This document shows, piece after piece, positions 23,035 to 37,618 of a DNA stretch of 64,000 nt (position 1 is its first letter; every line of letters starts with the position of its first letter). The notes beneath the pieces were generated by a model. The model was given only the letters and a program-made list of their open reading frames with translations. It did not search any database and was not told the DNA's origin. The position numbers were made by a program, and so were the translations under genes. Origin of the DNA: Candidatus Poribacteria bacterium (lineage in GTDB: Bacteria; Poribacteria; WGA-4E; WGA-3G); the NCBI GenBank assembly GCA_022823085.1, contig JAJDXV010000141.1, forward strand, positions 1 to 64,000, written 5' to 3'.

Positions 23035-23070
23035 ATTATGTACGCTTTTAACTCCAAGTCGCGTCACTAT
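23035..23070 (+). promoter_or_regulatory. ECF-type promoter P1
   Basis: ATTATGTACGCTTTT...CGCGTCACTATAT; matches P2-P5. Confidence 0.65.
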
Positions 23071-23106
23071 ATACCAAATAAAGCACTTTCCACTTAGAGG
23101 TGTTTG

Positions 23107-24669
23107 ATGAGAAACGACAATACCGAACTGATTCGACGTATTCTTGAAGGTGATGAGGCTGCCTTTGCGTGTTTGGTTAAAAAGTACCAAAAGCGAGTGC
23201 ACGCGCTGGCATGGCGGAAAATAGGGGACTTCCACATCGCTGAAGACCTTACACAAGAGACATTCCTACAGGTCTATCGGAAACTGGCAACGCTGAAAGA
23301 TCCAAATCAGTTTCCCGGATGGCTTTATGTCATTACCAACCGTTGCTGCCTTGCATGGCTTCGTAAGAAACGGATTCAAACGCAATCTTTGGAGGACACA
23401 GACATAGCAATGGTAGAGAAACCATCCTATTCGAGACACGTCGCTACAGAGCAGGCGGAAAGTGCAGCGGAGACAAAACGCGAATTGGTTAAAAATTTAC
23501 TGGCGAAGTTAAAAGAGAGCGATCGGACTGTCATCACCCTCTACTACTTCGGTGAAATGACTTATGCAGAGATAGGTGAGTTTTTAGGTGTGTCGGCGGA
23601 TACAGTTCGGATACGCGTCCGTCGTGCGTTGCAACGCTTAAAGAAGCACGAACCCTTGATTCAAGAGGCGCTCGGCAGTTTCCAACTGTCTCCGACTTTA
23701 ACAGAGAACATCATGCGTGAAATTCCGCGTATCAAACCCTTACCACCTACTGGCGGAAAGCCGCCGGTTGTACCGTGGGCAATAGCGACTTCAACTGCTA
23801 TTCTCGTTATGATAATACTCGGAGCCAGCAACCAATACCTAACACGTTTCCAGCAGCCTTACAATTTTGATGCCACATCCGAAATGACAGTCGAGATTAT
23901 TGACACCCCGATTGTTCTTGATATGGCATCAAAGTTAGATGCGCGCAATCAGTTTGGAAACTCTGAGATACTCGGCAAACGTGATAGTAATGGTAAGGAA
24001 CTTGAGGATATTCTTGAATCACATTTTAATGCCATAGGCGGTCTGGCACGGCTCTCGAAGATTCGGAGCTTAAAACGTTCCGGTCCGGCACAACTCACAC
24101 AACTCGGTGGACAATCCGTGAATTTTTTACCGGGTACAGTCGAGACAGCAACAGTAATAGGAAAAAAATCTTACCTCAAACTCGACTTCGGGAAATACTT
24201 CAACGAGACAACTGCGTGGAACGGTGAAACAGCTTGGAAATCGAGGCTATCAGAAAATACAACAATTTTTTCAGAATTAGAGTCCCAACGCGCCAAAGGT
24301 GAAGCCTACACGGATCTGCTGCAGCCAATATATCAGCAACACGGCAGTGCTGCCTTCCAACAAGGTGAAGATGAGATATTCGAAAATAAGGAATGTTTCG
24401 TGATCCAAATTCGTGGTTCAGAGGACATATCCTACTACATCGACAAAACTTCCAATCTACTTGCTGGATTCAAAGCCCCCTACACCGACGCTAACTTCGG
24501 CAGTGGCACTGTAGTTCTTTACTACGCCGATTACACGGAATATGAAGGTATAATGTTATCCAATTCCCGCGAGGTTCGGATCGGGAACGGTGTATTAACG
24601 GTTAATTACACCTTTACAGAAACAGAGATTGATGTTGCATTGGACGAAGCGATTTTTGAGAAACCGTAA
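23107..24669 (+). CDS. ECF sigma factor with TM segment and LolA-like C-terminal domain
   Basis: IAEDLTQETFLQVYRKL, Sigma70 region 4 (MTYAEIGEFLGVSADTVRIRVRRALQRLKK), TM VVPWAIATSTAILVMIILG, then a domain homologous to 24747-25490. Confidence 0.88.
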   Translation: MRNDNTELIRRILEGDEAAFACLVKKYQKRVHALAWRKIGDFHIAEDLTQETFLQVYRKLATLKDPNQFPGWLYVITNRCCLAWLRKKRIQTQSLEDTDIAMVEKPSYSRHVATEQAESAAETKRELVKNLLAKLKESDRTVITLYYFGEMTYAEIGEFLGVSADTVRIRVRRALQRLKKHEPLIQEALGSFQLSPTLTENIMREIPRIKPLPPTGGKPPVVPWAIATSTAILVMIILGASNQYLTRFQQPYNFDATSEMTVEIIDTPIVLDMASKLDARNQFGNSEILGKRDSNGKELEDILESHFNAIGGLARLSKIRSLKRSGPAQLTQLGGQSVNFLPGTVETATVIGKKSYLKLDFGKYFNETTAWNGETAWKSRLSENTTIFSELESQRAKGEAYTDLLQPIYQQHGSAAFQQGEDEIFENKECFVIQIRGSEDISYYIDKTSNLLAGFKAPYTDANFGSGTVVLYYADYTEYEGIMLSNSREVRIGNGVLTVNYTFTETEIDVALDEAIFEKP

Positions 24670-24746
24670 CAACCGCAATATCAATTCCAAATTATCCGAT
24701 AGACATTTAATCAACTATTACAAAACCAAAACTGAGAGGTAAAATC

Positions 24747-25490
24747 ATGAAAATACTGCGTAAACTCACCATTGTTGCTTTCTTTGCAATAGGTATGTCT
24801 TACAATATCTCGGCTGATGTTGAAGATATTCTTAAGGGACACTTTGAGGCTATTGGTGGACTGGAGCGACTGTCACAGATTCGGACTGTGAAACGCTCTG
24901 GAGACACACACGTGACACATTTTGGTGGACAAGCGATGAACATGCCAGGGACGGTCGAAGCAGCAATAGTTATAGGAAAAAAATCGTATACCAAGATACA
25001 CTATGAATGGTACAGCGAAACTGCTGTCTGGAACGGCACAGAAGGTTGGAAATCCACTTTATACGATGGCACAGCAGAATTTTCAGCAATGGAACTCGAA
25101 ATTGCCAAACAGAGAGTCTATATCACACCGTTTCAGCTAAGCTACGAACAACACGGCAGCAAGGCATTTAAACAGCGCGAAGATGAGACGTTCCAAGACA
25201 AGGAATGCTTCGTGATTCAGATCATCGGTGTAGAAGGTGTAGAGGACACGTTCTATTACATCGACAAAACTTCCAATCTACTCGTTGGGATTAAGGCACC
25301 GAACACCGATCCTACTTTCAATAGTAATACTGTGATGATTCAGTTGGGTGATTATACCGAATACAACGGTGTGGTGCTCCCGAATTCTCGGCAAGTGTCC
25401 ATTGGTGAAAATGAATTAAATGCCAATTATACTTATACAAAAACCGAGATTGATGTTACACTGGACGAAGCGATTTTTGAAAAACCCTAA
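24747..25490 (+). CDS. Secreted LolA-like lipoprotein-sorting-type protein
   Basis: Signal peptide; GHFEAIGGLERLSQIRTVKRSG...FYYIDKTSNLLVGIKAP paralogous to the ECF1 C-terminus. Confidence 0.7.
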   Translation: MKILRKLTIVAFFAIGMSYNISADVEDILKGHFEAIGGLERLSQIRTVKRSGDTHVTHFGGQAMNMPGTVEAAIVIGKKSYTKIHYEWYSETAVWNGTEGWKSTLYDGTAEFSAMELEIAKQRVYITPFQLSYEQHGSKAFKQREDETFQDKECFVIQIIGVEGVEDTFYYIDKTSNLLVGIKAPNTDPTFNSNTVMIQLGDYTEYNGVVLPNSRQVSIGENELNANYTYTKTEIDVTLDEAIFEKP

Positions 25491-25601
25491 CAGATGTATC
25501 AGTAAAAAAAAGAAATTATTGGAAGGCGGATACCTTCTCGTTTCCACTTCTTTGCTGGCGAGGTTTCTAACCTCGCCATATTTTTCTTAAAAGATATAAT
25601 T

Positions 25602-26712
25602 GAGGGTGTTTCATAAATCGTTATTTTTTATCGAAAGACGGTTTTGATGTGTGTGACATTTCGCGTCGGTAACTCACATCGGACATTCATTAACATTGCG
25701 AGTTGTAACAACACGGTGCCAATGCCCAAAAAGGTGGAAACATACGCCAGACCTCGTATCCGTAAAGGTTTATGCGCCCCCGTGATTGACAAGAGTTTGC
25801 TCAGCAAATCAAAGACGGGTTCAATGGCAACTTTTCGTGCTGCCTGCCATGTTCTGACTTGTGTTGCGGTATACAACGGGTCTGCTCCTAAAAGTGCGTT
25901 TGCCTCTACGAGCGTCGTCTTCGGGGTTAGCAAAAGCACGTCGTCTTTGGCAAAAGCGACTTGGCGTTTTTTATCAATATACCCGTTATCAGTGATGATA
26001 CACCGCACGCCTTTTTCAAGCAGTCGGTCTTTTTTGGCATCCAAGACCTTCCGTTCGTTGACGTTGGCGGGGAGGACGTGAAACATCACAGGGAAACCGT
26101 TGCGGATGCCGGTGAGATGAAGTCCGTATCCATACACCCATCCGTGATACCCGCTTTTCGACCAAGTCGCCGTTTTATCAACGCCTCGTAAGTTTTTCGG
26201 CAGATGCCCGTTACGACGATCCTTCTGATGCCAGACGGGGCCCGCAGCTTTGAACAAACTTTTATCTTCATAAACGACTTCTTGAAGAAACCCGGCTGCC
26301 TCGGCGAAACGTGAGGTTGCGACATATTCGGTGAACGTCTGAAGTTTAGGGGTCAACGCTTTATATCTGCGTCCGAGCGTCACATGAGACGGACACGCCG
26401 GGAGTCGACATCTTTCAAGCATCAGTGGATGGTGAAATAAGTAATCCTGCTGTGCGCGCATAGCGGTAATCCCTTTCAGGGTCATAACGGCGTAAAAAAC
26501 GATGAGCGAAGCATCGGTATAGGTCTGGGGTCTCCCCTTTTTAGAGACTTTTTCTTCGGTTGTTGAGAACTCGTCTAACATTGAAAACAAAAATGTGATA
26601 TACTCTCTCATGTCAGGATACTGCATGGGTATCTCCTTCACTTTATGTGCTATAAAATGAAAGGATACCCAGTATCCTGACTTTTGACAACTATTATTTA
26701 TGAAACACCCTC
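25602..26712 (-). mobile_element. Complete insertion sequence (1111 bp)
   Basis: TIRs GAGGGTGTTTCATAAAT/ATTTATGAAACACCCTC; 8-bp TSD ATATAATT at 25594-25601 and 26713-26720. Confidence 0.93.
25628..26641 (-). CDS. DDE transposase (IS4/IS5 superfamily-like)
   Basis: YEDKSLFKAAG, IITDNGYIDKKRQV and the RIRGLAYVSTFLGIGTVLLQ tail, inside defined IS ends. Confidence 0.88.
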   Translation of the reverse strand: MKEIPMQYPDMREYITFLFSMLDEFSTTEEKVSKKGRPQTYTDASLIVFYAVMTLKGITAMRAQQDYLFHHPLMLERCRLPACPSHVTLGRRYKALTPKLQTFTEYVATSRFAEAAGFLQEVVYEDKSLFKAAGPVWHQKDRRNGHLPKNLRGVDKTATWSKSGYHGWVYGYGLHLTGIRNGFPVMFHVLPANVNERKVLDAKKDRLLEKGVRCIITDNGYIDKKRQVAFAKDDVLLLTPKTTLVEANALLGADPLYTATQVRTWQAARKVAIEPVFDLLSKLLSITGAHKPLRIRGLAYVSTFLGIGTVLLQLAMLMNVRCELPTRNVTHIKTVFR

Positions 26713-26804
26713 ATATAATTATTTTTATTGAAAGTAAAAAGTATTTTTTTCTTTACAAAAAAATGCTTTTTTGCTATTATTTTGCTTGAAAAGGAAAAAT
26801 CGCT

Positions 26805-27020
26805 ATGCGCACCATCAATTCAGACGCATTTTATGATGCCTGCTTGCTTGCGTTTCAAGGGGTTCGGTATGAAGATATCGGTGAACGTCTCGGTGTCTCT
26901 CGCGTGACCGTTTCCAACTGGGCACAACGCCCCGAATGGAAAGAACTCCAAAAAGAACTTCATAAAAAAAAACGCCAGCAGGTGATTGATGCTGTCCTCG
27001 GAAACGAAACATCAACGTAA
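26805..27020 (+). CDS. Small HTH protein (terminase-small-subunit/homeodomain-like)
   Basis: YEDIGERLGVSRVTVSNWAQRPEWKELQKEL. Confidence 0.6.
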   Translation: MRTINSDAFYDACLLAFQGVRYEDIGERLGVSRVTVSNWAQRPEWKELQKELHKKKRQQVIDAVLGNETST

Positions 27021-27186
27021 AAAGAAAGGGGGAATCCTCCCCCTTAGATGTTTCGGATGTGTTACGATGCGGATATTTTCTTTTTCTTGACGATTTTTCC
27101 CGTGTTTGGTAAAATCGTTTTTGGACGTGGCTGCCTCTCATCTTTTGAGGTGCGTAGAAGGGGATAGGTCCCCCATCTACGCGGCA

Positions 27187-27264
27187 CAGTCACAGAATTG
27201 GTATGACTGCGCTAACCTAAATTATAGCATAAAATCATTGATTTTGTGTATTTTTTAGGTTAGC
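27187..27264. repeat. Consecutive inverted repeats
   Basis: CAGTCA/TGACTG (27187-27209) then GCTAACCTAAA...TTTAGGTTAGC (27211-27264) containing AAAATCA/TGATTTT. Confidence 0.7.
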
Positions 27265-27368
27265 ACCTTATATTAGAATAAGAGGATTGCTGCGTTACGC
27301 AAAAATGCTTACCATTTTTGTTTGCCATCCGCTTGCAATTCTCAAAAAAACAGGAGAATATACAAGTG

Positions 27369-27806
27369 ATGACACATCAACCTAAAAGAGTGGTTGCTTT
27401 ACTACTCTTATTGACACTTCCGACCCTTCTTTTAATTTCACCTCTTGCGATTTCTCATACTTATTGCAGTGGATGCCCTGGTACAGGGGAGTCCGGTGTC
27501 TGTGAATATTGTCAGTCTGATCACCCCTTCGGTAGTCATGGATCAGAGGCCCCGCCACCCCCGCCACCCCCGCCACCCCCCACACAGGAAGACTGCGATC
27601 AAGCAAAAGAGGATTGTGAAGATGCAGAGAAAGAAGCAAAAGCGGCTTGGAAAGCTGCGGGTATCGCTTGTTCGGTGGCTGCCGTAGAACCAAGCCCAGC
27701 GGGTGAACTTGTTTGTGCTGCCGCGACTGCAAACGCCTGGGCAATGACAATTCGTGCCGGATATATCTGTTCAAACGCAGCAGATTTATGCAGTCGGGTT
27801 GAGTAA
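27369..27806 (+). CDS. Secreted Cys-rich protein with polyproline tract
   Basis: MTHQPKRVVALLLLLTLPTLLLISPLAISHTYCSGCPG...PPPPPPPPPPTQEDC. Confidence 0.55.
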   Translation: MTHQPKRVVALLLLLTLPTLLLISPLAISHTYCSGCPGTGESGVCEYCQSDHPFGSHGSEAPPPPPPPPPPTQEDCDQAKEDCEDAEKEAKAAWKAAGIACSVAAVEPSPAGELVCAAATANAWAMTIRAGYICSNAADLCSRVE

Positions 27807-27874
27807 TCCTTGATCTAATTTTCTGGGGCGTGCGTGGTCATCGCTACGTCCCATTTTCTAAAAAGGAGTTTCTT

Positions 27875-29053
27875 ATGACTCAACGTCAGAAGAATGCTGT
27901 CCTTATCGGTGTTGTCGGTACTCTCTTAGCCTTGTTTACTTTTCGCCAAAATCTGAGTCACGCGATCTTCAGCGTTAGCAGTGTCTGTTTCGTCGCTGTT
28001 TCCACTTTTTTTTATAAAGGAAAATGGTTTCCAAGTTGGACATGGCGAGTCCCTCGTTTGCCTCGCTGGACATACATTGTGTTTGCATTTTTTTTCGTCT
28101 GTGGTGCCCTTTGGTTCTATTTCGAAGGCTCGCCTTTAATCCTGAAAGAAGTAGAGATACCTGTTTCTGAGGAAACAGAACAAATCGCTCCCATAGAGGA
28201 AACACGCCGTAGAAAAAAGAACCCCGTGCAGAAAAAGATTGTCGCACTCTTGACAGATGACAACTTTACAGAATCAATGTCAACAATTACCACGGATGGC
28301 AAGGTACCGGAACACCTTACCTCTATGTCAAAATTCCAAGACTACCTTGTAGAAGGTGGAATCACAGAGGTTAAAAACGTTGACCTGACGAATCACTTTC
28401 TAAAAATATTCCAAAAATACTTTCCTGGGAAAGTCCCTTCTGATTTAGATGTTGAGATGAAACGGCAATTAATCGAGATAATTGAAAAAATGGGGTACGA
28501 ATCTGGACACACTGCATTTCAGGAAGTCCGAGAAAACGCTATTTGGCTTGCGGCTCGGTTCGACCCGACTTTGGATATGGGTGCTAAACTCGGAAGATGG
28601 CCAGAATTTGTTCTATCAGACGATTTCGGAGACACGGGGAGAAGGGAAGACATAACCGTGTCATTTCCATCTCAGAGACCCGACACCGCTGCCCCTCCTC
28701 GTGCCATACCCTTACAGGATACTCCTGCTATTGAGGTCTCCGAGAACAAACTTCCCCCGAAGGATGTCTCGCTACAAATACCAAACGAGAACATCAGAGA
28801 AAACACGGCAGAAGTACAAGGCACGCCAGAAAATCCTCTGACCTTTGAAGACTTTGAAGACTTTGAAGACTTTGAGAATAGGTTTCTAAGACAATTGGAT
28901 CGAGAAATTATTTCACCACAGCGAGTCAACGCTGCAATGCAAACCTTGAATCAGTACGGTTATAAAGATGGGCTCGAGAGACTCAAGGCATCTGACCCAG
29001 AGTTTGCTAGTGCAATCCAACGCTTCATCGAAAAAAAACAAGAGGTTGATTAA
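27875..29053 (+). CDS. Membrane protein of unknown function
   Basis: Predicted N-terminal TM helices; tight junction with the 29054 ORF. Confidence 0.6.
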   Translation: MTQRQKNAVLIGVVGTLLALFTFRQNLSHAIFSVSSVCFVAVSTFFYKGKWFPSWTWRVPRLPRWTYIVFAFFFVCGALWFYFEGSPLILKEVEIPVSEETEQIAPIEETRRRKKNPVQKKIVALLTDDNFTESMSTITTDGKVPEHLTSMSKFQDYLVEGGITEVKNVDLTNHFLKIFQKYFPGKVPSDLDVEMKRQLIEIIEKMGYESGHTAFQEVRENAIWLAARFDPTLDMGAKLGRWPEFVLSDDFGDTGRREDITVSFPSQRPDTAAPPRAIPLQDTPAIEVSENKLPPKDVSLQIPNENIRENTAEVQGTPENPLTFEDFEDFEDFENRFLRQLDREIISPQRVNAAMQTLNQYGYKDGLERLKASDPEFASAIQRFIEKKQEVD

Positions 29054-29317
29054 ATGAAAGATACGCATTTCTTATACAGTGTCGCTGTATTCGCGGTTCT
29101 TGTCATCACATCAGTATTTATTGCTTACGCGACAGACACCCTACCGAGACATACGCCAAGAGAGTTGTCAACATTTATAACTCAACGGATACCAGAAAAG
29201 AAAGATTGTGACTGCTGTTCGGAGAAATTACAAGAGCCTCTGGAAAAAATAAAAGCGCAGATATTGGAGAACGAAGATATCAATAATGTATGGGTGGAAC
29301 TTCTTGAGCAGCAATAA
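29054..29317 (+). CDS. Small membrane-anchored protein
   Basis: N-terminal hydrophobic helix; overlaps the next ORF. Confidence 0.5.
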   Translation: MKDTHFLYSVAVFAVLVITSVFIAYATDTLPRHTPRELSTFITQRIPEKKDCDCCSEKLQEPLEKIKAQILENEDINNVWVELLEQQ

Positions 29318-30173
29318 GATACATAAAATACTCAATAAGATCATAAACCTTGATAGACGCATCATCTTCGTTTTTGTCGCGCTTGCTGTTATTATCCCAA
29401 CACTTTTAAAACCTCGCTTACCTGTTTCGGTCTCCGAACCGACACGGGCAGTTTATGATTATATTGAAGCCCTGCCGCCCGGTGCGATCGTGATGATGTC
29501 CTTCGATTTCGGTCCCTCGTCAATGCCGGAGCCGACTTCGATTGCCAAAGCAGTTTTACGCCACTGTTTTGATAAAGGGGTCCGAGTTATCGGTATCACG
29601 CTTTCCGCTGAAGCCGTTCCATTAGCAGATTCAATACTCAAGGAGATCGCTGGAGAAAAAGGGGCGGTGTTGGGTGAAGATTATAGTTATTTAGGGTTCC
29701 GCCCCGGTAGTGTTGGTGTCATACTCGCTCTCGTAACTCAAATCGCCAGTGTCTATAAAACAGATTATAGCGGAACGCCTATCGTTGAAATACCTTTAAT
29801 GCAACACGTGACGAACTATAATCAGATAGATCTATTGTTAGTTCTCGCGAGTGGAGACAGCACCGAAAGTTGGATAACTTATGCAGGCACAAACAATAAT
29901 ATGAAGATTGCCGCGGGGACAACTGCAGTCATCAGCACACAACTGTATCCGTACTTACAGTCTGGGCAACTTGTTGGGTTACTCAACGGATATTTAGGCG
30001 CAGCGGAGTATGAACAACTGACGGGAGAAATAGGAGAAGGTACGGTCGGAATCAATAGTGTAACTTGGGTGTATCTTTTTATTGTCGGACTCATAATTAT
30101 AGGCAATATTATCCACTTTATTGAGTATCAACGACAGAAACTGCAACTCTCCGATAGCAATATCGTATCGTAA
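29286..30173 (+). CDS. Membrane protein of unknown function, N- and C-terminal TM helices
   Basis: IIFVFVALAVIIPTLL and WVYLFIVGLIIIGNIIHFI. Confidence 0.6.
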   Translation: MYGWNFLSSNKIHKILNKIINLDRRIIFVFVALAVIIPTLLKPRLPVSVSEPTRAVYDYIEALPPGAIVMMSFDFGPSSMPEPTSIAKAVLRHCFDKGVRVIGITLSAEAVPLADSILKEIAGEKGAVLGEDYSYLGFRPGSVGVILALVTQIASVYKTDYSGTPIVEIPLMQHVTNYNQIDLLLVLASGDSTESWITYAGTNNNMKIAAGTTAVISTQLYPYLQSGQLVGLLNGYLGAAEYEQLTGEIGEGTVGINSVTWVYLFIVGLIIIGNIIHFIEYQRQKLQLSDSNIVS

Positions 30174-30402
30174 CCGAGAAGGCGCGTCGGATTGCTATAC
30201 AGATACTGTGCCATCCCGTGATACGTACTCGCAGTGCTAATCGCTGAGTCTACCGCAGACGCAAGACTCGAACTCCCATACGAAGAGAGAAACGCACGGA
30301 GCGTCAACCCCGCCGTATTGGCAAGTGTTGTCTGTGTCGCTGACGACAACGAAGAAATCAGGATCGTTTGCAGAGAACCTAATGAACCGCTACCACGACC
30401 TT

Positions 30403-30600
30403 TCAGGTCATTCGCAAGCGAACATACCGATCCCTTTCTCGCAGATACTCGTCTATTAGCTTCTCAAGTCGATCTTGTTCGGACTGCGCGTTCGCTATAT
30501 CATCAAGTGCACTCTGATCGGTCCCATGGGCGGAGACATCAGAGACAACAAAGCAGCACACCAGCGAAAGTAAAAGCCCTATCGTGAAAATATATTTCAT
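30403..30600 (-). CDS. Small secreted protein
   Basis: MKYIFTIGLLLSLVCCFVVSDVSAHG; 4-nt overlap with the upstream ORF. Confidence 0.5.
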   Translation of the reverse strand: MKYIFTIGLLLSLVCCFVVSDVSAHGTDQSALDDIANAQSEQDRLEKLIDEYLRERDRYVRLRMT

Positions 30601-31358
30601 CGGTTCTCCTCCTCTTGAAGCTGCTCCCTGTACGGATTTCGTGGCTTCGGTCCGACAGTGATCTGACTCGCGATTGCGTCAAATTCATCGGCGGCTTTAC
30701 AGAGCTGCGACAACTGTTCACTGTTTAACTTCGGTATCGGAGACCGGGACCTTACAAAATCCAGATACGGATGATTTAACGCTATGATCTGGTAACATTT
30801 GTCCAGATACGTTTCGTCTCCGGTTTCGTAATAAAGCCTACGGAAATGCTGTGCATCACCTCTGGCTTCTGTTACCAGATTCCGAGCGTTAACAAACGTC
30901 GCTTCGATGCTGTCGTCCTCATGAACCTTGTCAAACAGGTCAATGGAAGTCTGAACAGCCTTTTTGACCATTGCGATGTATTCTGGGCTGAGAATATCTT
31001 CAGAGAGCATTCGCTGCGCGGAACCCTGTTGCACTTGGGATGCGTTTTGCGTCTGGACAGCGGCAGACGGTTCACGGAATTGTGCTGTGGGTGGCTGCTC
31101 CACCGGTGGCTCGTGCGGCTCACCGTGCCACGTCCCATCGGCGTGGAAGTGTCCACCTTGCGAGGTATCACCCGCTTTGCCTTCGGTTGTTGGCTTCTGT
31201 TTCTCGTTCCATTGCGCGATGCGATCTTGCGTCTCGGCAAGTTCTTCTGCGCCTTGCTGCGCGACGTGCTGCATGTAAAGCAAAGAACCGCCAACACACA
31301 ACACAAAGAACGCTAACGCACCTATAAAGAGGCGGTTTTCAAAAAGGTCTTTTAACAT
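30597..31358 (-). CDS. Single-TM protein of unknown function
   Basis: LFIGALAFFVLCVGGSLLYM; HFHADGTWHGEPHEPP motif. Confidence 0.55.
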   Translation of the reverse strand: MLKDLFENRLFIGALAFFVLCVGGSLLYMQHVAQQGAEELAETQDRIAQWNEKQKPTTEGKAGDTSQGGHFHADGTWHGEPHEPPVEQPPTAQFREPSAAVQTQNASQVQQGSAQRMLSEDILSPEYIAMVKKAVQTSIDLFDKVHEDDSIEATFVNARNLVTEARGDAQHFRRLYYETGDETYLDKCYQIIALNHPYLDFVRSRSPIPKLNSEQLSQLCKAADEFDAIASQITVGPKPRNPYREQLQEEENR

Positions 31359-31403
31359 GTTAAAGACTCCTATTTTTCACCGATACACGTCTGCATCGGG
31401 GTA

Positions 31404-31536
31404 TTATTTGACGACTTCAGCACCAAAACCCGCACGATCTAATGCAGAAATTAGCACCGAACTTTTGACTTGACTTTTCACAACGACGGTTTGATCCGGG
31501 ATCGAGACAGAGACGATTTCTAAATCACCCTCATAA
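31404..31536 (-). pseudogene. Possible heavy-metal-associated (HMA)-like C-terminal remnant
   Basis: YEGDLEIVSVSIPDQTVVVKSQVKSSVLISALDRAGFGAEVVK* without a start codon in frame. Confidence 0.3.
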
Positions 31537-31601
31537 TATAATTAAAGCTACTAATATCAGGTTCTTTAGGGCAATTTTCACGTCTCGTTTCTGAATGCAG
31601 A

Positions 31602-31636
31602 ATTATGCACCTTTTTTAATCGAATTCGCGTCACTA
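31602..31636 (+). promoter_or_regulatory. ECF-type promoter P2
   Basis: ATTATGCACCTTTTTT...CGCGTCACTATA. Confidence 0.7.
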
Positions 31637-31739
31637 TAGGGAACGGAATTGATAGGGCACCTCTTTGAGGTTCGCAGACCTATCTATTCACGAACACGAA
31701 AACGCTACCAGTTCCAAATAGTTTTTCTGGAGATAATAG

Positions 31740-33467
31740 ATGAGAAATGATGATGTCGCCTTGATTCAACGTACCCTTGCCGGTGATGAGAACGCTTTCG
31801 CGAGTTTGGTTAGAAAGTACCAACAGCAGGTCCACGCATTCGCACGGCGGAAAATCGGGGATTTTCAGATCGCTGAAGATATTACACAGGAGACTTTTCT
31901 GCAGGTCTATCAGAAGCTGGAAACCTTAGACGATCCAACGTTGTTCTCACAATGGCTTTATACGATTGCGAATCATCTGTGTATCGCATGGTTCCGACAA
32001 AATCGGTTACAGACAGAACCGCTCGAAGAGGTCTGTATATTAGGTATAGAGAGAGAACCGTATTCCCGATATGTCGCCTCAGAACACGCGAAAATAGCTG
32101 CTGAAGCGCAGCGCGATCTCGTCGAAAAACTGCTTGCGAAGTTGAAAGAGAGCGATCGCAAGGTAATCACGCTCCACTACTTTGAAGAGATGACATCTTC
32201 AGAAATAGGCGAATTCTTAGGCGTATCCGAAAACACCATTAAAAGTAGGATCCGCCGCGCGAGGCAGCAACTCAAGAAATACGAATCTATAGTCGGAGAG
32301 GTATTAGGCATCACAATTGGAACGGAAGATCGCTATACCAAACATTTGAACGGAGGTATTCGGATGAAGCTAACTTTTGAAAAAGACAACCTTTTGTCGT
32401 CCTTACAAGCACTGCAGCGTGTCGCGAGTAAGCAGGATGCGCCGCTTCTCTCAAATGTTCTTATCCAAGCCGAGGATAGCACGATTGAGTGCATGGCAAC
32501 AGATGCGGAAATCGGTATCAGAATGAAGGTTGACGGGACTGTCAAAGAAGCGGGATCAATCCTTGTCTCTGCTGAAAAATTGGTGGACATCGTTAAAACG
32601 TGGCCCGCCGAGCAACCGATAGACTTGGCAACAACGAAAGACGATCACGTCGAAATTACCTGCGGGGATAGTGTACGCAAAATCGTTGGGTTTCCCGACA
32701 AAGCGTTTCCGCAACTTCCTGTTGTCGATACAGCAGCATTCGCTATTGATGGGGAAGTTCTACGGTCCGTTCTCCACAAAACGACATTTGCTGCAGCGAC
32801 AGACGATGTCCGCTACTTCCTAAACGGACTCTATTTTAAGCTTCTTGAAGATAGAACGGAAGTGGTTGCAAGCGATGCCATCCAGCTTGCGCTCACACAC
32901 TGTGAACCGTTCAGGTTATCCGAGGATAAAGATGGCTTCATCGTCCCGCTGAAAGCCGTCAAAGAGATTGAGCGAACCTTTGCCAACGCTCCAGAGATAA
33001 GAATCTCACGCATTGAGAACCAAATTCTCTTTGCAGATGAACACACCACGTTGACGACACAACTGATGGACGCTGAATATCCAGAGTATGATAGCATTAT
33101 TCCAAAATCTTTTGAGGGTCATGTTGTGGTGCCGAAAGCATCTATTATGGACATAACGCGTGATATTTTTGCACGCGCAAATCCGGAAAACGCTCTGGTC
33201 TGTTTAGAAATCAATCCGCAACAGATTCAAATCTCGGCGAAGACCTCCGAAACAGACGATGAAATACAGGAGACATTAGCAGCCGAGTCTGGCACGGGGA
33301 GCATCCGTATCGGTCTGAATGCACAGATGCTGATAGAGACCCTCTCGCATATTGAAACGGAGTCTGTATCGCTGGCGTTCACGAGTGCGATAGAACCTCT
33401 CGTTGTTAAACCGATTGGCGAAGAAGGACATATCTGCGTCCTCTGTGCAATGAAAATGGATTCCTAA
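31740..33467 (+). CDS. ECF sigma factor fused in frame to DNA polymerase III beta sliding clamp (DnaN)
   Basis: N-terminus MRNDDVALIQRTLAGDENAFASLVRKYQQQVHAFARRKIGDFQIAEDITQETFLQVYQKL; C-terminus MKLTFEKDNLLSSLQALQRVASKQDAPLLSNVLIQA...AEYPEYDSIIP...FTSAIEPLVVKP, about 368 aa. Confidence 0.9.
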   Translation: MRNDDVALIQRTLAGDENAFASLVRKYQQQVHAFARRKIGDFQIAEDITQETFLQVYQKLETLDDPTLFSQWLYTIANHLCIAWFRQNRLQTEPLEEVCILGIEREPYSRYVASEHAKIAAEAQRDLVEKLLAKLKESDRKVITLHYFEEMTSSEIGEFLGVSENTIKSRIRRARQQLKKYESIVGEVLGITIGTEDRYTKHLNGGIRMKLTFEKDNLLSSLQALQRVASKQDAPLLSNVLIQAEDSTIECMATDAEIGIRMKVDGTVKEAGSILVSAEKLVDIVKTWPAEQPIDLATTKDDHVEITCGDSVRKIVGFPDKAFPQLPVVDTAAFAIDGEVLRSVLHKTTFAAATDDVRYFLNGLYFKLLEDRTEVVASDAIQLALTHCEPFRLSEDKDGFIVPLKAVKEIERTFANAPEIRISRIENQILFADEHTTLTTQLMDAEYPEYDSIIPKSFEGHVVVPKASIMDITRDIFARANPENALVCLEINPQQIQISAKTSETDDEIQETLAAESGTGSIRIGLNAQMLIETLSHIETESVSLAFTSAIEPLVVKPIGEEGHICVLCAMKMDS

Positions 33468-33475
33468 CGAAAGAA

Positions 33476-34747
33476 ATGATTTTCATCGCATCCATCGCCG
33501 TGGCAATCAGAGCACTGCTTATAAACAAACTTCGTTCCTTACTGACGATGCTCGGCATTACAATCGGTATCGCAGCGGTGCTCGCAATGGTTGCTATCGG
33601 CGATGGGGCTAAAGAGATTATCCTTAAGGACCTCGAAAAAATAAGCGGGATTAACGTCTTCACAGTTCTACAGACCTCTTTCAAATGGGTCGCAGGTCGC
33701 CGGGTCCCAACTCGGAGCGGAGAATATCTTAACTATGGCGACGTGCTGGCAATCGAGCGGGAATGCCCATCTGTGCAGATTGTTGCCCCACGGATCCCAG
33801 AGTGGTCGCGGGTGCTGATACAAGCCCCAGATGGCACAAACATCCGTGCTGGCTATAACGGTGTAGATGAAGATTACGCCATAGCATTGGCATGGGACTT
33901 AGCAAGGGGACGGTTTATCTCTGAGGAAGACGTTAAAAATTCGACCAGCGTCGCTGTGCTCGGCGCGAATGTCGCGACGGCGTTATTCGGTGAAGTGTCT
34001 CCACTCGGAAAAGAGATCAAGATTGTCCGGCGTTCAACGAGTGGAATAAAAGAACGCCTCACTGTTATCGGCACCTTGGTGCCGCGTGGACGGAGTCTCG
34101 AATTCGGGTTCAGTTTCGACGATCTCGTTTTTATGCCGCTTACCACTGTGCAGCAACGTTTCACAGGCAACGACCGAATCCCGCAAATTGCTGTTCATGT
34201 ACACACCGTAGAAGATATGCCTCAAGCGATTGCGGAGGTTACAGCCGTTATTAGGAAACGGCACCGAAATCGAGACGACTTCTTTGGAACTTTCGACGTA
34301 CGCTTAGGCCTGGCACGCCTCATGAAGATCAGCACACTCATAAAGACAGCATTAGGCGGTATCGCCGGTTTTTCACTCCTTGTCGGTGGGATCGGCATTA
34401 TGAACATGATGCTGGTTGCTGTCGGAGAGCGGACCCGAGAAATCGGACTCCGAAACGCCTGTGGTGCGAAGCGGGCAGATATCCTATTACAGTTCTTAAG
34501 CGAATCTATTCTCTTGTGTAGCATCGGTGGTATACTCGGTATCGGTCTCGGTGTTTTCGCAAGCAAAGGGATGGCACATATCGCAGTGCGTATCGTGAAA
34601 ATTGTCCCTGAATGGCCCGCAGTTCTCTCCGTCCAATGGGCATTGATATCCGTCTTTTTTTCTATGCTACTTGGTGTCGGTTTCGGGTTGTATCCCGCCA
34701 TAAAAGCCATGCGGTTGTCACCAATTGAGGCTTTGCGGACTGAATGA
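33476..34747 (+). CDS. MacB/FtsX-type ABC transporter permease
   Basis: LRSLLTMLGITIGIAAVLAMVAIGDGAK...GGIGIMNMMLVAVGERTREIGLRNACGAKR. Confidence 0.92.
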   Translation: MIFIASIAVAIRALLINKLRSLLTMLGITIGIAAVLAMVAIGDGAKEIILKDLEKISGINVFTVLQTSFKWVAGRRVPTRSGEYLNYGDVLAIERECPSVQIVAPRIPEWSRVLIQAPDGTNIRAGYNGVDEDYAIALAWDLARGRFISEEDVKNSTSVAVLGANVATALFGEVSPLGKEIKIVRRSTSGIKERLTVIGTLVPRGRSLEFGFSFDDLVFMPLTTVQQRFTGNDRIPQIAVHVHTVEDMPQAIAEVTAVIRKRHRNRDDFFGTFDVRLGLARLMKISTLIKTALGGIAGFSLLVGGIGIMNMMLVAVGERTREIGLRNACGAKRADILLQFLSESILLCSIGGILGIGLGVFASKGMAHIAVRIVKIVPEWPAVLSVQWALISVFFSMLLGVGFGLYPAIKAMRLSPIEALRTE

Positions 34748-34783
34748 GAACATATTTTTACCCCCACCTAATTTCCTTCCGAA

Positions 34784-34820
34784 ATTATGCACCTCTTTTT
34801 AAATAACTCGCGTCTTTAAT
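34784..34820 (+). promoter_or_regulatory. ECF-type promoter P3
   Basis: ATTATGCACCTCTTTTT...CGCGTC. Confidence 0.7.
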
Positions 34821-34855
34821 TATAAGTGAACAAAAATGCATGCTGGAGTTTTTTG

Positions 34856-36157
34856 GTGAAAAACGAAGATGTTGCATTGATACAACGTATCCTTGTAGGC
34901 GATGAAACTGCTTTTGAAAGTTTGATCAGAAAGTATAAGCAGCAGGTTCACGCGCAGGCGTTGCGGCAAATTGATGATTTTCAGATCGCTGAAGATATTG
35001 TGCAGGAAACTTTTCTGCAAGTCTATCAGAAACTGGACACGTTGGAAGACCCGAAACTCTTTCTAAAGTGGCTTTACGTGATTGTGAACCGGCGCTGTAT
35101 CGCATGGCTCCGCAAAAATCGACTACAGACCCAACCGTTGGAAGAAACCGACATATCAGAAATAGAGACAGAGGCGTACTCCCGATATATCGCTGAAGAA
35201 CATGCGAGAACAACTGCTGAGGCGCAACGCGACCTCGTCCAAAAATTGCTGGCGAAGTTGAAGGAGAGCGATCGTGAAGTTATCACGCTCCACTATTTTG
35301 AAGAGATGACATCTTCAGAGATAGGGACGTTCTTAGGTGTCTCTGAAAATACGGTTAAGAGCCGCCTTCAACGGGCAAGGCAGCGATTAAAGAAGTACGA
35401 ATCTATGATTCAAGAGGCGTTAGATATTACAATCGAGGAGGGACACCGTTCCCAACACCAGTTGAAAGGAGAAGTCAACATGACAAAAGAAGTGAGAGAT
35501 GAAGCCAAAGGTGAAGTGAGGTTGGAAGAAGAGCAGCAACACTTGATCGCAGCACTGGCTTCAGATGCTGTGCAAGAAATGATCGCGTCCGCTGTGCAAG
35601 AAATGGTTTCAGATGCTGTGCAAAAAACGCTTTCGTCAATGCAAGCGGCACTTCAGGTTCCCGCAGGGAAATCGGACACTTTGCACCCGGATGACATACG
35701 ACTTCATGAACCCCAAAAAGGTGAAGCACTTCAAACGTTATATCAACTCCCAGAGGGTGCTGAAAGGCCGATCTCGTGGGGGTATGTGGGTGGGTATCGG
35801 ACATCACCGGGGAAGACATCAGGCCGCATCGCATTTTGGTCGGATAGCATTGATAACTTTCTATCGAAAGCACCGGATGCCGACATCGTGAATCTTGCAA
35901 GTCTCTTCACAAACCCTACCGTTGTGGCTGTTTTAAGACAGTTAGTAGAAGGAAAAAAGTCGGTAGAGGATTTGGTAGAAGGGTGTGATTTTTCAGAAAA
36001 TGAGGTAGAAAAAGCTGTAGCGTCGTTAATGGAAGCGACGTTAGTCGCTCGCACGGAAGATAATCGCATTGAACCGAAAAACGATGCCGTTTCCTTTTTC
36101 CTAAACTTCGTGAGTATGACGACTGTTCACCTTGGACATATCAGACCTGAGAATTAA
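34856..36157 (+). CDS. ECF sigma factor fused to winged-helix-like domain
   Basis: Sigma N-terminus; C-terminal NPTVVAVLRQLVEGKKSVEDLVEGCDFSENEVEKAVASLMEATLV (ArsR-like wHTH). Confidence 0.85.
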   Translation: MKNEDVALIQRILVGDETAFESLIRKYKQQVHAQALRQIDDFQIAEDIVQETFLQVYQKLDTLEDPKLFLKWLYVIVNRRCIAWLRKNRLQTQPLEETDISEIETEAYSRYIAEEHARTTAEAQRDLVQKLLAKLKESDREVITLHYFEEMTSSEIGTFLGVSENTVKSRLQRARQRLKKYESMIQEALDITIEEGHRSQHQLKGEVNMTKEVRDEAKGEVRLEEEQQHLIAALASDAVQEMIASAVQEMVSDAVQKTLSSMQAALQVPAGKSDTLHPDDIRLHEPQKGEALQTLYQLPEGAERPISWGYVGGYRTSPGKTSGRIAFWSDSIDNFLSKAPDADIVNLASLFTNPTVVAVLRQLVEGKKSVEDLVEGCDFSENEVEKAVASLMEATLVARTEDNRIEPKNDAVSFFLNFVSMTTVHLGHIRPEN

Positions 36158-36283
36158 ACTCGGTTTTCATTGGCGAGGGTTTAGAGGAACCGGAGCTCGG
36201 TTTTTCTAACCCTCGCTATTGCAATACCATGCTTGAGGCAACCCTCCCGACAAATATTTTCCTTTTAAATCCATTTTTTGAAA

Positions 36284-36320
36284 ATTATGCACCCTTTTCT
36301 CTCTGTTCGCGTCATTATAT
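36284..36320 (+). promoter_or_regulatory. ECF-type promoter P4
   Basis: ATTATGCACCCTTTT...CGCGTCATTATAT. Confidence 0.7.
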
Positions 36321-36430
36321 AGTAACATGAACGGATAGCATGTCGTTTCGCGCTTTGTAAGTGCATTTATCCGAAAAATATGTAATCGTATCGGTCCAGC
36401 GAATGTAAATAGCCTTTCTGGAGATGGTAG

Positions 36431-37618
36431 ATGAGAAATGACGATGTTGCGTTGATCCAGCGTATCCTCATAGGTGATGAGACCGCTTTTGAAAGTTTGG
36501 TCAGAAAGTACCAGAAGCAGGTTCACGCGCTCGCCTTTCGGAAAGTAGGAGATTTTCAGACTGCTGAAGATATTACACAGGAGGCTTTCCTACAAGTCCA
36601 TCAGAAACTCACAACGCTAAACGATCCAGCAAAGTTTTTGGGGTGGCTCTATGCGATTGTGAACCATCTGTGTATCGCATGGTACAGAAAGAACCGGTTA
36701 CAAGCCGAGTCGCTACAAGATATCCATATCTCAGAGGTAGAAACAGATGCGTATTCTCGGTATATCGCGACGGAGCACGCGAAAACAACTGCTGCAGCGC
36801 AACAGGATTTGGTCAAAAAACTCCTTACGAAGCTGAAAGCGAGCGACCGAGAGGTTATCACGCTCCACTATTTTGAAGAGATGACCTCTTCAGAAATAGG
36901 CGAGCTTTTAGGCGTATCCGAAAACACGATTAAGAGCCGTCTCCACCGTGCGCGACAGCGACTAAAAAATTACGAATCCATGATTCAAGAAGCATTGGAC
37001 ATCACGGCTGAACGGAAACACCGTTCCCAACACCAATTGAAAGGAGAAACTAACATGGCAGACGAAGTGAGAAATCAATCCGAGGTAGACGGAAAACTTG
37101 AAGAGATGCAACGTCAGATCACGGATCTGCAAGAGCAAATCAAGGATCTCGCCACCCAATCGGATGCTTCTATTGATTCAGGTAAAAGAGAAGCACTTAA
37201 TGCATTATTCCGACTCCCTCATGATGCGAAAGATGCGATCACGTGGTGTTATGCGGGTGCCTATCGTGCCGCCTCTGGACATAGGTCAAGGCGCGGCTCA
37301 ATCTGGTCGGATAGTATTGAGAATTTCATATCAAGGGCACCGGATGCTGAGATCGTGAAACTTGCGAAATTTTTCACAAACCCTATTATAGTTGCTGTCT
37401 TAAGACAGTTAGTGGAAGGCAAGAAGTCAGTTGCAGATTTGGCAGACGGCTGTGGTATCTCTGAAAGTGAAATGGAGAGAACCGTGGCGTTGTTAATAGA
37501 CGGATCGTTAGTGGATCGGACAAAAGAGGGTCTCATTGAACCTAAAAACGATGCCGTTTTTTATTTTTTGAACTTCGTGGGTATGACAAGGGTCTATCTG
37601 AACCCGAAAGACCACTAA
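36431..37618 (+). CDS. ECF sigma factor fused to winged-helix-like domain (paralogue)
   Basis: Same architecture as 34856-36157. Confidence 0.85.
   Translation: MRNDDVALIQRILIGDETAFESLVRKYQKQVHALAFRKVGDFQTAEDITQEAFLQVHQKLTTLNDPAKFLGWLYAIVNHLCIAWYRKNRLQAESLQDIHISEVETDAYSRYIATEHAKTTAAAQQDLVKKLLTKLKASDREVITLHYFEEMTSSEIGELLGVSENTIKSRLHRARQRLKNYESMIQEALDITAERKHRSQHQLKGETNMADEVRNQSEVDGKLEEMQRQITDLQEQIKDLATQSDASIDSGKREALNALFRLPHDAKDAITWCYAGAYRAASGHRSRRGSIWSDSIENFISRAPDAEIVKLAKFFTNPIIVAVLRQLVEGKKSVADLADGCGISESEMERTVALLIDGSLVDRTKEGLIEPKNDAVFYFLNFVGMTRVYLNPKDH

Follow-up and report, generated by a model that had tools for sequence, protein, structure and literature searches.

The window analysed here is a stretch of 64,000 nucleotides from a contig (JAJDXV010000141.1) of a Candidatus Poribacteria bacterium. 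It contains a gene that encodes an ECF sigma factor and a DnaN-like sliding clamp in one polypeptide. This gene, the elements in front of it and within it, and its neighbours are listed in Table 1.

Table 1. Features of the sigma-clamp locus (positions in the window)
Feature	Position	Strand	Basis or remark
Sister ECF gene with hydrophobic (probably membrane) segment after sigma region 4	23104..24669	+	Promoter 23037-23071
ECF-type promoter element TATGCACC-N17-CGTCACTATA, putative autoregulatory	31604..31638	+	Conserved before fusion orthologues and sister ECF genes
Whole ECF sigma-DnaN fusion gene	31740..33467	+	Single uninterrupted frame, 575 aa
ECF sigma head, aa 1-182, sigma regions 2 and 4	31740..32285	+	Pfam, structure model
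Linker, aa 183-208, mostly predicted disordered	32286..32363	+	pLDDT <50 at aa 183-207; stop test
Shine-Dalgarno (SD) GGAGG for internal start, in frame	32352..32356	+	Kept in 45/45 distinct fusions
DnaN-like clamp, aa 209-575, internal ATG to stop	32364..33467	+	Pfam, NCBIfam, Foldseek
MacB/FtsX-type ABC permease, probably co-transcribed	33476..34747	+	Pfam MacB_PCD, FtsX; 8 nt after fusion stop
Sister gene, same ECF head, internal SD/ATG at 35480, weak winged-helix C-terminal part	34826..36157	+	HTH_20 below its cut-off
Sister gene, same ECF head, internal SD/ATG at 37055, winged-helix-like C-terminal part	36431..37618	+	Promoter 36286-36319

ECF sigma factors have sigma-70 regions 2 and 4 but lack regions 1.1 and 3. 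Pfam places Sigma70_r2 at aa 23-89 and Sigma70_r4_2 at aa 126-178 of the fusion, and three DNA_pol3_beta domains at aa 209-327, 336-449 and 452-563 (E values 3e-13 to 5e-24). In NCBIfam the head scores 103 bits with TIGR02937 (cut-off 42.9) and the clamp 223 bits with TIGR00663 dnaN, above the equivalog cut-off of 138; in both collections the sigma matches are confined to regions 2 and 4. A monomeric structure model of moderate confidence, built with 29 orthologues (mean pLDDT 75, pTM 0.54), consists of folded parts and a disordered stretch at aa 183-207. Foldseek aligns its clamp part with beta clamps of known structure; among the best 50 matches, most have target-normalised TM-scores of 0.81-0.90. 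Domain matches, model and structural search thus agree on a three-domain clamp fold, which follows sigma region 4 behind a disordered linker.

The initial annotation had described an ECF factor joined in frame to a full-length DnaN, and this is confirmed by the open frame, by the domain matches and by relatives with the same fusion. Its sigma part of about 205 aa has to be shortened to some 182 aa plus a disordered linker of about 25 aa; the clamp does follow, as proposed.

Distribution, origins and related fusions

All data used here are genomic, and many of the genomes are metagenome-assembled. In a scan of GTDB genomes, full-length relatives of the fusion (58-92% identity) were all found in Poribacteria, one of them in a 6.7-Mb one-contig chromosome. 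The Poribacteria that bear the fusion are sponge-associated. The search for the same fusion in related genomes, proposed at the outset, gave sigma-clamp genes in 33 of the 38 genomes of the window's genus (four of them single-contig) and in a sister genus (g4). Within the genus, 26 genomes carry a full-length fusion of the window's type (clade I), seven others a more distant one (clade II, 39-42% identity) and five neither. No genome of the genus has full-length fusions of both clades; G071 combines a clade II fusion with a truncated clade I copy. The genome of the window itself (G000) has two fused copies only, the second being located on contig 152 (L002). In the sister genus the fusion is present in three genomes (G041, G042 and G048), split or partial copies being found in others; the copy of G039 is split. 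There are also shortened ECF-clamp fusions of about 455-466 aa with clamp domains I and II only (L180, L181, L182, L141).

Maximum-likelihood trees place the fused clamps in two clades, both fully or almost fully supported, the second of which (clade II) is nested together with a single stand-alone dnaN lineage. Forcing all fused clamps into a single clade is rejected at an AU p of 0.038, modest when taken alone. The tree of heads gives stronger agreement: those of clade II form a separate ECF group (support 100/100, on a long branch), and clade I heads are interleaved among the heads of other ECF fusions, which suggests that heads have been exchanged between paralogues. A single origin is disfavoured by the AU test and by the clear separation of the heads; the fusion has at least two origins, which differ both in the ECF head and in the dnaN lineage that were joined. 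Values of dN/dS are 0.26 for fused clamps, 0.13 for heads and 0.09 for stand-alone clamps. By this measure fused clamps are under purifying selection and evolve faster than stand-alone ones.

An assembly artefact, a chance joining or a decaying pseudogene might be considered, as the source assembly is metagenome-derived and consists of 181 contigs, and truncated (463-466 aa) or split (G039) copies exist elsewhere. Such an explanation has very little probability in view of 33 carrier genomes out of 38, single-contig ones included, of two origins and of purifying selection. Misassembly or a frameshift between the modules is refuted by full-length relatives of 58-92% identity in many independent poribacterial assemblies.

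Origin from a phage or plasmid was rejected as well. No phage record covers 80% of the query, and the one plasmid record that does so has sigma factor and dnaN as separate genes. On the Streptomyces dengpaensis plasmid NZ_CP026654.1 a sigma-70 family gene lies near a separate dnaN (L272:2441-5523, + strand), which may be coincidence.

Permeases of the MacB-type family were found near the fusion in 15 of 23 loci and ABC-2 permeases in 13 of 23. The sigma-clamp gene belongs to a wider family of ECF fusions, which lay beyond the reach of the initial annotation. Where the joint reads AAAGGAG-ATG, similar heads are followed by winged-helix-like parts (two of these genes lie beside the window gene), an S9 peptidase or WD40 repeats. 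Heads of clade II type carry FtsZ, FtsZ with a shortened Pol III alpha, or the FtsZ GTPase domain alone; an SD-like run with ATG is also found at the joint of these fusions. The FtsZ-Pol III alpha form occurs in about 20 genomes of the genus, alongside separate ftsZ and dnaE genes, and most of these fusions keep the GTPase and polymerase active-site motifs.

Several single cases deserve mention. A 1365-aa ECF sigma-FtsZ-shortened Pol III alpha protein (with PHP, palm and fingers) is encoded on contig 56 of the window's own genome (L218:3414-7508, +). The FtsZ GTPase domain alone follows an ECF sigma factor at L266:916-2133 (+), L274:2974-4200 (-) and L275:4465-5685 (-). In G083 and G084 a gene of this ECF-FtsZ type is clustered with an ECF-DnaN gene and ABC permease genes. 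Genus g2 has a DnaN-FtsZ fusion of about 693 aa (G029 contig 2, L273:1926-4007, -; also G028 contig 163) that directly precedes a sigma-54 activator gene. The expansion of ECF fusions in the window's own genome is large: 57 sigma region 4 matches are spread over many contigs (L201-L220), many in frames of 400-1365 aa, and some combine an ECF head with a membrane segment and large propeller-like parts.

Promoter element and internal start

ECF sigma factors recognise bipartite promoters with a -35 and a -10 element, and such a promoter often lies 5' of the sigma gene itself. An element of this type, TTATGCACC-N17-CGCGTCAYTATA, lies upstream of the fusion gene and of sister ECF genes; in the form TATGCACC-N17-CGTC it is conserved before them and is a candidate target of their own sigma factor. 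Of 85 distinct sites in the loci compared, 78 precede ECF frames. When three whole genomes were searched with the pattern, 22 sites were retrieved, compared with one for the reversed control; at least 19 of the 22 lie directly before ECF frames and two more before partial ones. In the window, all four ECF genes at 23104-37618 are preceded by such a site. Since an ECF-type promoter stands before the fusion and its sister genes, the fusion gene is likely autoregulated, promoter function and autoregulation being deduced from the position of the element. The ECF-linked control that had been proposed for this gene thus gains a candidate promoter, with a pattern conserved in relatives.

At the fusion joint the sequence reads AACGGAGGTATTCGG-ATG, with the ATG at 32364-32366. 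An SD-like run with an in-frame ATG is present at the joint of all 45 distinct fusions, in two codon registers: clade I has AACGGAGGT or similar, and clade II has AAGGAGG in the other register, encoding different residues. Predicted anti-SD pairing averages -9.3 kcal/mol at the joint, as against -1.3 at other internal Met codons; the mean for stand-alone dnaN starts is -7.5 kcal/mol. We rejected the possibility that the SD is a by-product of amino-acid constraint, because it stays constant while codon register and residues vary. It is stronger than in 500 of 500 synonymous reshuffles, and no stop codon occurs in the linkers of 105 ECF fusions, where about 19 would be expected without selection on the basis of at least 263 amino-acid changes; since the sequences are related and the set was collected as open frames, these figures are guides, not exact probabilities. 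The good SD and ATG noted at the joint are as first described, and they are kept at the nucleotide level.

The SD tests and the absence of linker stops say that, as far as sequences can tell, read-through and internal start are both kept in ECF fusions. Because the joint is retained in 45 fusions and the linkers are free of stops, a fusion of about 63 kDa and a free clamp of about 40 kDa are probably both made. This suggests that the internal start may be held by selection alongside the fusion.

Fused clamp and replicative clamp

Most genomes of the phylum have stand-alone dnaN genes of about 370 codons, which frequently lie in tandem in sets of two or three (e.g. L189:7381-9795, +). The fused clamp is 53-59% identical to stand-alone clamps of the genus. 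It shares with the DnaN beta clamp the three-domain fold and the dnaN equivalog score, and differs in being joined to a sigma factor, in being additional to stand-alone dnaN and in its altered dimer interface and pore.

The search of the window's own genome for stand-alone dnaN gave the two fused copies and no separate gene. When the 17-kb dnaN region of a close relative (G066) was searched against this assembly, the flanking genes were missing too. As the whole syntenic block of about 17 kb is lacking, the absence is most likely an assembly gap. For the same reason, and because relatives have stand-alone dnaN, the fused clamp was rejected as sole clamp of the cell. The initial annotation had proposed to look for a second dnaN near dnaA; in the single-contig genomes of the genus dnaN does not adjoin dnaA.

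To compare functional sites, residues were mapped onto E. coli DnaN (from MG1655) and set against 59 stand-alone poribacterial clamps; we take I272/L273 and F106 to be dimer residues and R24 and R73 to face DNA. The list of cleft residues was taken from PMC11139829. At the I272/L273 sites all 59 stand-alone clamps have LL, whereas the window protein has A478/R479. At the F106 site, 58 of the 59 have Y and the window protein has R (R313). The R24 site, R in nearly all stand-alone clamps, is Q, and the R73 site, K or R in nearly all, is E. In E. coli, the I272A/L273A exchange renders beta monomeric (PMC3022782). Clade I matches stand-alone clamps in conservation when all columns are taken together. 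Its dimer columns are much less conserved (P 5e-5), its pore columns less conserved (P 0.04), and the conservation of cleft columns is unchanged. The window cleft keeps the L155, L177 and P242 sites and is changed at G174 (to A), M362 (to C) and P363 (to A). Clade II lacks five residues in domain I.

Judged from residues alone, the window clamp does not possess the dimer interface that closes the ring. With dimer and pore residues lost while the sequence stays constrained, the fused protein is best regarded as a constrained, repurposed clamp in which normal ring closure is unlikely. Because relatives have a separate dnaN and dimer and DNA-facing residues are altered, comparison with these genomes leads us to conclude that it is not the replicative clamp of the cell. 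The proposal of the initial annotation that clamp expression for replication is placed under ECF control is consequently not upheld, given the separate dnaN of relatives, the missing 17-kb block and the altered residues. Stand-alone dnaN genes in relatives had also been named in advance as evidence against the fusion; they exist to the letter, but they coexist with it.

Possible roles of the clamp extension

C-terminal extensions that control ECF factors have precedents (PMC8103513). Like the fusion, ECF41, ECF42 and ECF56 (SnoaL-type domains) consist of minimal sigma2-sigma4 followed at the C-terminus by a folded domain with a possible role in controlling activity (PMC8103513, PMC7730460). 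The poribacterial extension differs by comprising an entire DnaN paralogue and by having an internal start in frame; in sister genes FtsZ or FtsZ-Pol III alpha takes its place. Extra copies of replisome proteins targeted by inhibitors are also known: antibiotic producers have second DnaN copies (griR, mypR) and a DnaE homologue (narR/ngnU), the latter a proposed decoy (PMC10817943, PMC8922275). Fused copies likewise exist besides stand-alone dnaN in relatives; those of antibiotic producers stand alone, in or near biosynthetic clusters, whereas the poribacterial ones are joined to sigma factors. In the open-licence literature we found no paper on Poribacteria and ECF sigma factors, and none joining ECF sigma factor, sliding clamp, fusion protein and FtsZ.

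We tentatively favour, at somewhat less than even chance, a lineage-specific, probably autoregulated ECF sigma factor that uses a repurposed clamp paralogue as regulatory or sensing C-terminal extension. The locus would give rise to two proteins, the sigma-clamp of about 63 kDa and, from the internal start, a free clamp-like protein of about 40 kDa. The clamp part would act as a docking or sensing domain and not as a processivity ring, its putative ligand site being the cleft that binds clamp-binding peptides and clamp inhibitors. Occupancy of this domain would switch the sigma factor on or off; the latter would then transcribe its own gene and probably the adjacent ABC gene, and the free copy could compete for the same ligand and so buffer the response. 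Conservation across independent assemblies, the two origins, the SD and stop tests, the promoter, purifying selection, loss of conservation in the dimer and pore columns with an unchanged cleft, MacB-type and ABC-2 neighbours, other cell-cycle cargo on ECF heads and the DnaN-FtsZ fusion next to a sigma-54 activator gene speak for a regulatory domain. The changes at the G174, M362 and P363 sites of the window cleft may be held against it.

DnaN, Pol III alpha and FtsZ are proteins attacked by inhibitors. In a target-mimic form of the mechanism, a spare copy carried on the sigma factor would report inhibitor attack and induce export. Extended to the family, ECF factors joined to spare DnaN, FtsZ or FtsZ-Pol III alpha would constitute a class of sensors that detect inhibitors or failure of replication or division, each with an internal start able to yield a free copy, and that switch on self-amplifying transcription and export. 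Target mimicry would explain why just these cargoes recur near ABC genes. The winged-helix, S9 peptidase and WD40 cargoes on similar heads do not fit, and FtsZ-Pol III alpha fusions may be enzymes rather than mimics, as most keep active-site motifs; we regard a sensor class as possible but doubtful. Antagonists may target the cargo proteins, and the clamp part (or FtsZ or Pol III alpha in sister genes) could be bait for host-clamp-binding proteins of phages or competitors, attack freeing or activating the sigma factor. Evolution that is faster than in stand-alone clamps yet constrained would suit bait. The fusion has no match in the defence library, however, and its neighbours are transport and not defence genes, which leaves bait the least probable of the biological roles considered here.

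The strong SD and ATG in every fusion, the same joint before unrelated cargo and the interleaving of heads among cargo types, as if exchanged, would also be expected if head, promoter and in-frame SD formed a mobile expression cassette. The product that does the work would be an alternative clamp, free of the head, translated from the internal ATG and controlled by the ECF factor; it might assemble into a ring of its own through an altered interface, and the fusion would serve autoregulation only. Linkers, however, are free of stops, against an expectation of about 19 without selection, so that reading through into the cargo is maintained as well; dimer and pore residues are changed, including K to E at the R73 site, and fused clamps evolve faster than replicative ones. 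A cassette of this kind seems unlikely to us, and still more unlikely is a sigma factor that tracks DNA.

Phage T4 is the clear precedent known to us for a sigma-family factor tied to a sliding clamp. In its late transcription gp55 is physically linked to gp45 (PMC7892883) as two separate proteins and through a clamp-binding motif; the poribacterial link is covalent, so that the clamp is in the same polypeptide, sigma region 4 is present and ring-closing residues are lost. A covalent counterpart would have the fused clamp loaded on DNA, tethering RNA polymerase and linking the search for promoters to replication. Clamps are able to activate transcription in this way, as a tether of the polymerase (PMC7892883), the fusion has a complete three-domain clamp fold on a flexible linker, and the free clamp could pair with the fusion into a ring with one sigma arm. 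The ring-closing hydrophobics, the F106 equivalent and the DNA-facing residues are lost, though, the corresponding double exchange makes E. coli beta monomeric, and clade II lacks five residues in domain I; because of these losses, T4-like tracking is less likely than the regulatory or sensing domain that we favour.

Further natural examples of clamp tethering are anticipated by those who determined the T4 structure (PMC7892883). According to the comparisons presented here, covalent sigma-clamp proteins have arisen at least twice in one bacterial lineage, which has placed ECF heads on FtsZ and Pol III alpha as well; this points to a hitherto undescribed connection between transcription and core proteins of the cell cycle. 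The system is open to testing, with its promoter defined, its two products predicted and ligands known for the cleft of clamps. If the clamp part controls the sigma factor, transcription in these bacteria would be wired directly to core cell-cycle proteins or to their inhibitors.
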